64,000 bases of DNA from Geothrix fuzhouensis (lineage in GTDB: Bacteria > Acidobacteriota > Holophagae > Holophagales > Holophagaceae): NCBI RefSeq assembly GCF_024609325.1, contig NZ_JANHMQ010000003.1, positions 270,938-334,937 on the forward strand. Direction: 5' to 3'. Position 1 is the stretch's first letter, and each line of letters begins with the position of its first letter. Positions 78-53,732 of this stretch are shown here, piece by piece. The notes below the pieces were generated by a model that saw only the letters and a list, made by a program, of their open reading frames with translations, did not search any database and was not told the DNA's origin. A program made the translations under genes and the position numbers.

Positions 78-109
78 CTATCTTTGATAGAACTGAGATT
101 CGAACTCTC

Positions 110-133
110 CCTGGCCACGCATGCGTGGCCAGG
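110..133. repeat. Perfect 24-bp palindrome
   Basis: Both strands read the same over 24 bases centred between 121 and 122; each half is CCTGGCCACGCA. It sits just ahead of the tandem array and just after a tRNA T-arm-like stretch (GATTCGAAC at 98-106). At the tRNA-Arg locus the comparable position holds a 19-bp inverted repeat made from the tRNA tail, so this may be the equivalent element for a tRNA lying left of the window. That last point is inference. Confidence 0.6.
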
Positions 134-174
134 ATCCAGCGTCGAGTGGGCTTGTGGAGGCGCGACTAGATGTC

Positions 175-531
175 GCGCCGGAGCAAGACCGGCGGCTGGC
201 GAAGCCAGACGCAGTTCGAATCCTGCCCTGATGAGTCGGCGCGAAATACGGAGAACGGCCAGAAAGTCCTGGTGGTGAAGGCGTATCAGAGGAGCGCCGG
301 AGCAAGACCGGCGGCTGGCGAAGCCAGACGCAGTTCGAATCCTGTCCTGATGAGTCGGCGCGAAACATGGAGAACGGCCAGAAAGTCCTGATGCTGAATG
401 TGTCTCGGATGAGCGCCGGAGCAAGACCGGCGGCTGGCGAAGCCAGACGCAGTTCGAATCCGCCTAGGCGGATCGGCGCGGACGTCGGAGAACGGCCTGT
501 GACGGGGTGCCAACCCTTCAGGTTGGGTCGG
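175..531 (+). repeat. 119-bp tandem repeat array (three units), tRNA-tail repeat family
   Basis: Three units begin at 175, 294 and 413, an exact 119-bp period. Units 1 and 2 are nearly identical; unit 3 diverges after its first half. Each unit holds the core CGGAGCAAGACCGGC, a small hairpin (CTGGC GAA GCCAG) and a T-loop-like AGTTCGAATCC, then GTCGGCGCG and GGAGAACGGCC. The same core order appears on the opposite strand in the arrays downstream of tRNA-Arg (8508-8789) and tRNA-His (53219-53613). No convincing protein is encoded: open frames across it simply repeat. Confidence 0.85.
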
Positions 532-8041: not shown

Positions 8042-8497
8042 ATGCTCTGGTATTCTTGGTGTGTGAATCCCGCTGCTGTCACTCGAAGCGCGCGATCTTT
8101 CGTACGCTGGCGCAGACAGTTCGAAACCGGACTGGAGCCCATCGACCAGCAGCACCGGGAGCTCTTTGAGACGCTGGGCCAGTTGGCCGGCGCCATCGAA
8201 ACGGGGGCGCCAAGGGACCAGCTGGACGAGGGGTTGGCCTCCTTGGCACAGCATCTCATCAAGCACTGCCAGACCGAAGAGACCCTCATGAAGGAGGCGG
8301 GGTTTTCTGGCCGCATCGTCCACGCGAACCAGCACCAGGATCTGGTTCTTGGCGTCCGCGACCTCCAGTACCGGCGGGCGAAGGGCCAAAAACTGGGCCT
8401 GGAGGCGGTGGAACTGGTCAGGGAGGGGCTGGACCACCACATCTGCGAGTCCGATCTGGCCATGGCGGGCTACCTGAAGACGCTTCGCGCGGTTTGA
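8042..8497 (+). CDS. Bacteriohemerythrin
   Basis: About 151 residues with the full hemerythrin ligand pattern: IDQQHRELFE, then HLIKHCQTEE, HANQHQDL and a terminal LDHHICESD. These His/Glu/Asp residues bind a diiron centre that reversibly binds oxygen. The start is uncertain. ATG 8042 gives a tail longer than usual before FVRWRRQFETGLEPID, and GTG 8063 is an alternative. It is likely an oxygen sensor or oxygen-delivery protein in a microaerophile or anaerobe. The stop is only about 10 bases from the first tRNA-Arg tail copy. Confidence 0.85.
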   Translation: MLWYSWCVNPAAVTRSARSFVRWRRQFETGLEPIDQQHRELFETLGQLAGAIETGAPRDQLDEGLASLAQHLIKHCQTEETLMKEAGFSGRIVHANQHQDLVLGVRDLQYRRAKGQKLGLEAVELVREGLDHHICESDLAMAGYLKTLRAV

Positions 8498-8507
8498 GCC
8501 CGCGGGG

Positions 8508-8789
8508 TCGAATTCAGCTGGGCGCAGGGATGGGCGCCGACCCACGTCACGCTGGCCTCGAACTGCGCTCGGCTGCGCCGATCGCCGGTCTTCCTGCGGC
8601 AGGACATCAAGTCCTGCCTTCAGAATCCCATTCGCTGATTCGAGTCCAGCTGGGCGCACGGAGGCGCGCCGACCCACTTAACGCTGGCCTCGAACTGTGC
8701 TCGGCTGCGCCGATCGCCGGTCTCGCTCCGACAGCGCCCCGCGCTGTCTCCACGATCCCATTCGCTGGCCCGAGTCCAGCTGGGCGCAC
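8508..8789 (-). repeat. Tandem array carrying inverted copies of the tRNA-Arg 3' end
   Basis: Copies of the tRNA-Arg tail lie at 8508-8526, 8639-8658 and 8771-8788, spaced 132 and 130 bp. They read on the plus strand while the tRNA is on the minus strand, so they are inverted. A tRNA read-through transcript would carry several segments complementary to the tRNA's own T arm and acceptor strand. Between copies is a conserved module. In transcript direction it runs GGAGACAGC hairpin, CGGAGCGAGACCGGC, a second hairpin, AGTTCGAGGCC and GTGGGTCGGCGCG, matching the arrays at 175-531 and 53219-53613. The first unit is the most diverged. Confidence 0.85.
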
Positions 8790-8811
8790 TTGGTGCGCCC
8801 AGCTGGACTCG
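8771..8811. terminator. 19-bp perfect inverted repeat at the 3' end of tRNA-Arg
   Basis: Bases 8771-8789 and 8793-8811 are exact reverse complements with a 3-base loop. The right arm is the 3' part of the tRNA itself (T-stem, acceptor strand and CCA), so folding this hairpin would compete with the tRNA cloverleaf. It could act as a terminator or processing signal, though no U tract follows. Confidence 0.6.
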
Positions 8812-8867
8812 AACCAGCGACCTGCAGCTTAGAAGGCTGCTGCTCTATCCACCTGAGCTATGGGCGC
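8791..8867 (-). tRNA. tRNA-Arg (anticodon TCT)
   Basis: The minus strand folds into a full cloverleaf: acceptor GCGCCCA/TGGGCGC, D stem GCTC/GAGC, anticodon stem GCAGC/GCTGC with loop CTTCTAA (anticodon TCT), T stem GCTGG/CCAGC with loop TTCGAGT, discriminator A, and an encoded CCA at 8793-8791. It reads AGA codons. It is flanked downstream by the tail-repeat array, which begins inside its own 3' end. Confidence 0.97.
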
Positions 8868-53218: not shown

Positions 53219-53613
53219 CTTCCGGCGGCTCCGGGCAGCCCCAGGCCCACTCGGACCGGACTCGAACCGTCCGCATCCCGCTTTGCGGTCTGCCGGTCTC
53301 GCTTCCGACAGCCCACCGGGCTGTCTCCGTGAGCCCCTTGTCGCCGGGTCGGGATCTGGCCAAGGAACCTGACCCACCCAGACCGGCCTCGAACCGTCCG
53401 CAACCCGCTTTGCGGTCTGCCGGTCTCGCTCCGACAGCCCACCGGGCTGTCTCCGCGAGCCCATTGTCGCCGGGTCGGGATCTGGCCGAGGAACCCGACC
53501 CACCCAGACCGGCCTCGAACCGTCCGCATCCCGCTGCGCGGCCTGCCGGTCTCGCTCCGACAGCCCACCGGGCTGTCTCCGCGAGCCCATTGTCGCCGGG
53601 TCGAGTCCAGGTG
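53219..53613 (-). repeat. 126-bp tandem array carrying inverted tRNA-His tail sequence
   Basis: Units begin at 53341, 53467 and (partial) 53593, an exact 126-bp period, with a diverged unit before them from about 53219. In transcript direction each unit reads GGAGACAGC hairpin, CGGAGCGAGACCGGC, a second hairpin, a T-loop-like GGTTCGAGGCC and GGGTGGGTC, then sequence resembling the antisense of the tRNA-His T arm. The copy next to the tRNA (53591-53608) matches the tRNA segment at 53669-53686 in 17 of 18 bases but inverted. The same core is found at 175-531 and 8508-8789. Confidence 0.85.
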
Positions 53614-53615
53614 TC

Positions 53616-53657
53616 CCAGAATGAAAAAGCCCCCGTGCGGGGGCCTTTTCATTCTGG
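53616..53657. terminator. Strong bidirectional terminator after tRNA-His
   Basis: An almost perfect hairpin: CCAGAATGAAAA and TTTTCATTCTGG enclose GCCCCC-GTGC-GGGGGC, with T runs on both strands. One arm includes the CCA end of tRNA-His, so the tRNA 3' end and the terminator stem are fused. Confidence 0.85.
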
Positions 53658-53732
53658 GGCGGCTGACCGGACTCGAACCGGCGACACCTGGAATCACAAT
53701 CCAGTACTCTAACCAACTGAGCTACAGCCGCC
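53655..53732 (-). tRNA. tRNA-His (anticodon GTG)
   Basis: The minus strand folds as G-1 plus GCGGCTG acceptor paired to CAGCCGC, C73, encoded CCA, D stem GCTC/GAGT, anticodon stem CTGGA/TCCAG with loop TTGTGAT, and T stem GCCGG/CCGGT with loop TTCGAGT. The extra 5' G and opposite C73 are the identity elements of tRNA-His. Confidence 0.97.

Follow-up and report, generated by a model that had tools for sequence, protein, structure and literature searches.

Background

In a 64,000-nucleotide stretch of the genome of Geothrix fuzhouensis (contig NZ_JANHMQ010000003.1, positions 270,938 to 334,937; hereafter the window), a tRNA-Arg gene is followed by tandem repeats carrying copies of the tRNA's own 3' end in the opposite orientation. 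This arrangement raises the question of what such copies are, how they come to match the gene beside them and what they might do to its product. An initial annotation of the locus took the inverted copies to be a design distinct from the direct repeats of Escherichia coli tyrT and suggested that they might terminate transcription, tune tRNA maturation or supply an antisense RNA. We report here that the repeats are units of a family of tRNA-tail cassettes in the Holophagaceae, we describe their grammar, structure and distribution, and we weigh the explanations that could account for them.

Results and discussion

The array behind tRNA-Arg(TCT)

The host gene, tRNA-Arg (anticodon TCT), lies on the minus strand at 8791..8867 (ARAGORN; Rfam RF00005, 71.1 bits), so that its 3' flank runs from 8790 down to 8501, and the sequence copied in the array is the 3' strand of its T-arm and acceptor stem. 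An inverted-repeat search recovers the three inverted copies first annotated, about 130 and 131 bp apart and all on the plus strand: I1 (8762..8789), directly after the CCA, I2 (8632..8659) and I3 (8501..8526), a degenerate terminal copy that ends the array. These arms, of 28, 28 and 26 nt, pair against 8793-8820 of the tRNA gene, being 93, 96 and 85% complementary to the tRNA tail, and I1 does form with the tRNA the perfect 19-bp stem described earlier, across a 3-nt loop.

The first reading of the array was thus right about the inverted copies; it was incomplete in overlooking two further arrays and the direct copies of the T-arm. The first of these, D1, of sequence CAGTTCGAGGCCAGC (8683..8697, minus strand), closes with I1 a first unit (8686..8777, minus strand), whose conserved class A core is computed to fold as a three-way junction with the apical hairpin GACAGCGC/GCGCTGTC and which scores 87.8 bits with our class A model, R1 (E 2e-16). 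I2 opens the second unit (8554..8647, minus strand; 100.1 bits with R1, E 5e-19), which has a class A core with the apical hairpin GGCAGGAC-TTGAT-GTCCTGCC and is closed by D2, again CAGTTCGAGGCCAGC (8551..8565, minus strand). Read on the minus strand, the order is CCA, I1, core, D1, I2, core, D2, I3, that is, two units of about 130 bp with a closing inverted copy at the end of the array, as also found at loci L087, L092 and L100. Since each unit has both an inverted copy (I) and a direct copy (D), its structured core is flanked by copies of opposite orientation. When a unit is folded to minimum energy, its own I and D pair with each other and so close a folded domain. No run of T comes after I in the window.

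Two open frames span the array (8494-8832, plus strand; 8607-8789, minus strand; e.g. ...AQLDSNQRPAA). They are probably a side effect of the repeats and might be annotated as proteins in error.

Further arrays in the window and in the genome

The two further arrays lie near either end of the window. The window starts about 100 bp beyond the end of a tRNA-Pro(TGG) gene; an inverted copy of the tail of this tRNA lies at 85..109 (minus strand) and three class A units follow in tandem at 131-223, 251-342 and 370-461 (together 131..461, plus strand; model R1). The sequence that follows the tRNA-Pro(TGG) gene and reaches window position 1 (L061:1838-2020) contains long runs of G and of C together with ten N bases, and is probably a misassembled gap. 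A hammerhead-like CTGATGAG..CGAAAC in a unit of this array was rejected as a candidate, the window giving no Rfam match for it. The third array is hosted by tRNA-His (GTG; 53655..53731, minus strand; ARAGORN). Here a terminator-like palindrome (53614-53654) precedes the I copy of the T-arm (53591..53613, plus strand), and three tandem class A units occupy 53511-53608, 53385-53482 and 53258-53356 (together 53258..53608, minus strand; model R1).

Across this genome, an inverted self-match lies within 110 nt downstream of 14 of the 46 tRNA genes; with shuffled flanks, 41 of 9,200 tests gave one, corresponding to about 0.2 tRNAs expected. The tmRNA of the genome bears a unit as well, and in a first scan long-period tandem repeats occurred in several downstream tRNA flanks and in 0 upstream flanks. 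The initial annotation had staked its case in part on finding tail copies conserved beside further tRNAs of related genomes. Such copies are conserved there and are specific to their hosts, so that the sequence half of its refutation test comes out in its favour.

The cores fall into class A, found behind Arg, Pro, Thr, His and other tRNAs, and class B/C, found behind Val, Glu, Cys, Met, Arg and others. The extent of the direct copy varies between them: class B units of this genome (Val, Glu, Ser, Cys, Phe) duplicate the tRNA 3' end in full, CCA included, and mostly also the terminator-like hairpin that comes after it, and the direct host tail with its CCA likewise ends the units of several Arg arrays, while many class A units, including those in the window, hold the T-arm part alone.

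Hosts of the cassettes

Directly behind an intact tRNA gene, on the same strand, lie 53 of 60 class A loci. The other seven comprise four behind tRNA 3' fragments, two that lie at a contig edge or are cut by it and one mixed array, behind a tRNA-His, in which the first unit is of class C. Arrays behind 3' fragments derive from Thr (L077, L132, L158), Pro (L065, L179) and Met (L160, L272) tRNAs and resemble what an island inserted in the tRNA gene leaves; in the present genome an intact tRNA-Met (C1:554421) lies about 3 kb from its own 3' fragment, which is followed by two class C units (C1:557.4-557.9 kb). As units are also found behind tmRNA genes, the hosts comprise tRNAs, tRNA 3' fragments and tmRNA, and what they have in common is therefore the T-arm/acceptor/CCA end. 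The grammar of the cassettes can be written tRNA(D)-(I-core-D)n-I, with a tRNA, a tRNA 3' fragment or a tmRNA as host.

At L076:1380-1900 (genome G009, contig C40), about 500 bp form a palindrome whose centre is the terminator of an array of tRNA-Thr type that lacks the tRNA itself; this may be a genuine fold-back inversion or else an artefact of assembly or amplification.

Structure and strand of the core

A covariation analysis of the unit, which had been proposed as a check, bears out the folded core. In 150 class A units paired cells amount to 97.6%, against 83.5% in shuffles, and double changes number 594 against 183, both counts leaning towards the model to which the alignment was fitted; the covariation signal is destroyed by sliding the partners. 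The apical loop reads TAGAT, TTGAT or TCGAT 84 times and its reverse complement 0 times, and the internal loops have G.A-type sequences. Where tRNA and I fail to match, G.U outnumbers A.C by 75 to 14, a sense-strand bias. Together, the loop that does not invert, the G.A-type internal loops and the G.U-rich mismatches point to the strand of the tRNA transcript.

The stems of the core tell a different story. P2b has 4 G.U and 3 A.C among about 1,030 cells, compared with 5.9% G.U in tRNA stems, and many core stems differ as whole modules. Core stems nearly free of G.U are fitted better by DNA copying or the exchange of whole hairpins than by stepwise selection on RNA. Copying at the DNA level is likely to be what keeps the palindromes perfect; template switching, through which hairpins are suggested to arise and to be repaired (PMC8794818), is one proposed route.

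In L100, L101 and the Pro(GGG) array L051, some of the class A apical stems contain insertions of about 50-70 nt that are nested, palindromic and GC-rich. Searches of Rfam at gathering and at relaxed thresholds match the units to no known family and find the tRNA alone, and comparison by eye with the consensus of integron attC sites gave no match.

Matching of the inverted copies to the host tRNA

In 95 of the 117 loci of Geothrix and its relatives that have an inverted copy, I fits its own tRNA better than the tRNAs of every other amino acid. This comparison was used in place of a unique match to the host anticodon, which is found at only 54 of the 117 because isoacceptors share T-arms. Furthermore, the match follows changes in the tRNA. 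Where a tRNA base varies across species, in the sense of departing from the commonest tRNA base of its group (64 places), I carries the complementary base in 59 cases and retains the old one in 1, a count which leans somewhat towards matching because the loci had to align. At tRNA-Arg(TCT), for example, species with CAGCTAGGCGCACCA then have GCGCCTAGCTGG, and species with GTTGG..CCAAC then have CCCAGTTGG..CAAC. The inverted copy is kept in 26 of the 29 distinct Arg(TCT) loci.

Termination by the hairpin of tRNA and I, one of the roles first proposed, is not borne out: none of the 26 Arg(TCT) loci having I shows a terminator-like site with a U-tract before it, and other loci have a terminator of their own ahead of I. 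Such a terminator-like hairpin precedes I in 43 of 117 loci, where read-through would consequently be limited. At 19 of the 26 Arg(TCT) loci, I starts 0-2 nt past the CCA with no terminator between.

Turnover of the units

Units are near-identical to their neighbours and diverse elsewhere: the median identity is 0.91 within one array, and 0.70, 0.71 and 0.68 for units of the same genome, of the same tRNA and drawn at random, respectively. The Arg(TCT) site, with the same downstream gene, has class A in some species (L084/L085/L104) and class C in others (L105/L106), and at some loci elsewhere (L088, L093) an inverted copy stands alone, with no core. We found no mobiliser for the cassettes; in particular, a Y1 transposase (PF01797; RAYT/IS200-type) is absent from the four few-contig, array-bearing genomes G000 (the present genome), G002, G044 and G046.

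Distribution

The class A model has matches in 44 of 47 Geothrix genomes and in three other genera of Holophagaceae, and the class B/C model in further genera of the family. Neither core occurred in two further families of the taxonomic class that were searched, and class A has no match in about 270 Acidobacteriota outside Holophagaceae (297 genomes being sampled in the phylum). Pattern matches outside the family (Streptomyces, Frankia and others) are taken as chance because their model scores are weak at best and no tRNA adjoins them. In viral contigs, class A was absent, 17 short-motif matches failed the B/C model and no core pattern tested was found convincingly. The cassettes are a real family of the Holophagaceae, of the same kind as the RtT elements discussed below, and appear to be unreported, in so far as our searches of the open-access literature turned up no account of comparable arrays from the Acidobacteriota.

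In another genus, a B-type core that falls under the threshold of the model can be seen by eye after tRNA-Pro and tRNA-Asn. Related genera have direct tail copies, perfect or nearly so, behind other tRNAs (L189 and L224 in G067; L233 and L235 in G081), and part of these are probably neighbouring duplicate tRNA genes.

Origin and possible function

The explanation that we prefer, and for which we would claim about even confidence, is that the tRNA-tail cassettes of Holophagaceae are read through with the tRNA and spread by copying of the T-arm. The cassettes would be transcribed together with their host. In that transcript, I might pair with the D of its own unit, giving a closed folded domain and leaving the tRNA free, or alternatively with the tRNA, giving a long hairpin in which the tRNA would be trapped. 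By analogy with RtT RNA in E. coli, units may be released during tRNA processing. Spread would proceed by DNA copying between T-arms, through gene conversion or template switching, and since the T-arm GTTCGANNCC is common to most tRNAs, local tRNA sequence would be written into both ends of the cassette.

A serious rival, to which we would still give appreciably less than even credence, holds that the cassettes are purely selfish DNA hairpin repeats, copied from tRNA to tRNA through T-arm homology, with RNA playing no part; template switching would keep their palindromes perfect and unequal crossing-over would enlarge the arrays. This accounts well for units that are near-identical within one array and not elsewhere (0.91 against 0.68-0.71), for defects in P2b that are as often A.C as G.U, for an I that tracks tRNA changes with no wobble intermediates and for core types that differ between congeners at one locus; the published proposal on the making and mending of hairpins (PMC8794818) also speaks for it. 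It sits less well with an apical loop that never inverts, inversion being one possible outcome of template switching across a hairpin, with the sense-strand bias of the mismatches between tRNA and I, or with the retention of the inverted copy at Arg(TCT).

Control of the tRNA itself seems improbable to us. Here a read-through I would pair with the 3' half of the tRNA and tune its level, by blocking 3' maturation or by triggering RNase III. The 19-28 bp of complementarity preserved by matching changes and the Arg(TCT) loci in which I begins 0-2 nt after the CCA would suit such a role, yet a tRNA is usually folded before I is made, tmRNA and tRNA fragments are among the hosts, and each I is equally able to pair with the D of its own unit, a point that also weakens the antisense RNA proposed in the initial annotation. 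That the D copies are att sites of islands at tRNA 3' ends, with cores as remnants of attP arms, is very unlikely: tRNA and tmRNA 3' ends are classic sites of tyrosine integrases, five tyrosine recombinase matches occur in this genome and some arrays follow 3' fragments of tRNAs of the kind left by islands, but the inverted copies and a single covarying core across many different tRNAs are not predicted, and no tested core pattern lies convincingly within viral contigs.

The matching changes of tRNA and trailer across species form a series for testing how hairpins stay matched, and the cassettes would provide a natural case of tRNA genes with trailers that could trap their own product.

Relation to RtT and other known systems

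RtT elements are known from enterobacteria and Pasteurellaceae. Re-reading the E. coli RtT (RF00391) behind tyrT, tyrV and proK reveals the same I-core-D grammar, with inverted T-arm copies at +55 and +60 (Tyr) and +51 (Pro) from the tRNA, and direct copies too. At tyrT/tyrV, GGGGAAGG[AG]TGAGAA[GC]CTTCGA is an inverted Tyr T-arm and the end is AATCCTTCCCCCACCACCA; the proK element (RF00391, 101 bits; L397:949-1082) contains GAGGATGAGAACCTCCG and has the end AATCCTCTATCACCGACCA. The contrast first drawn with a tyrT carrying direct copies only does not hold: tyrT, tyrV and proK carry inverted copies and Geothrix carries direct ones, so that the distinction by orientation falls and a stronger parallel appears in its place. 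Like the Geothrix cassettes, RtT lies 3' of tRNA genes, has a folded core and host-specific ends, which differ between Tyr and Pro, and includes tandem units (of about 178 bp, at tyrV). Each RtT unit closes on a direct copy of the host tail down to its CCA, an end that class B units and several Arg arrays share and many class A units lack.

The cores, in contrast, are unrelated. RF00391 has no match in this Geothrix genome at E<=10, nor in the window, and R1 scores 10.7 bits in the E. coli locus, which is not beyond noise; the Geothrix element is therefore RtT-like by architecture and not a member by sequence. It also differs in having at least two core types, I copies that are often longer, and a host range that takes in the tmRNA and roughly one tRNA in three. 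PMC4986893, citing Bosl and Kersten (1991), reports that in E. coli RtT RNAs are released from transcripts of tRNA operons and modulate the stringent response.

Other systems share single features. The 3'ETS-leuZ of E. coli, the external transcribed spacer of a tRNA-Leu annotated as a small regulatory RNA, is an RNA directly downstream of a tRNA, but it is a single spacer and no strong tail copies were found near leuZ. REP/BIME are short palindromic intergenic repeats with covarying hairpins, as in the cassettes; REP/BIME go with RAYT (Y1), whereas the cassettes sit only behind tRNA-like genes, and the four few-contig genomes searched have no Y1. The att sites of genomic islands also duplicate tRNA 3' ends directly, but the cassette units, of about 130-170 bp, are non-coding and have inverted copies as well.

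That a distant phylum shows the same I/D grammar, behind tmRNA and roughly one tRNA in three, suggests that elements tied to the T-arm form a wider class. We put forward, tentatively and as the less probable case, that tRNA-tail cassettes are a general and barely recognised class of bacterial elements, T-arm-matched hairpins processed as RNA, that serve or parasitise tRNA and tmRNA genes and have their ends rewritten to match the host tRNA; RtT in the gammaproteobacteria and the Holophagaceae cassettes would be independent or very ancient members.

Among RtT matches in a plasmid collection, the four inspected adjoin purU, three of them lying between purU and narI in the arrangement of the chromosomal tyrTV locus; they give no sign of independent mobility. 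In E. coli MG1655, the argVYZQ cluster (L399) gives weak RF00391 matches of 29-31 bits, the annotation of the regions examined names rttR at tyrV only, and the matches at proK and argVYZQ adjoin the tails of their own tRNAs.
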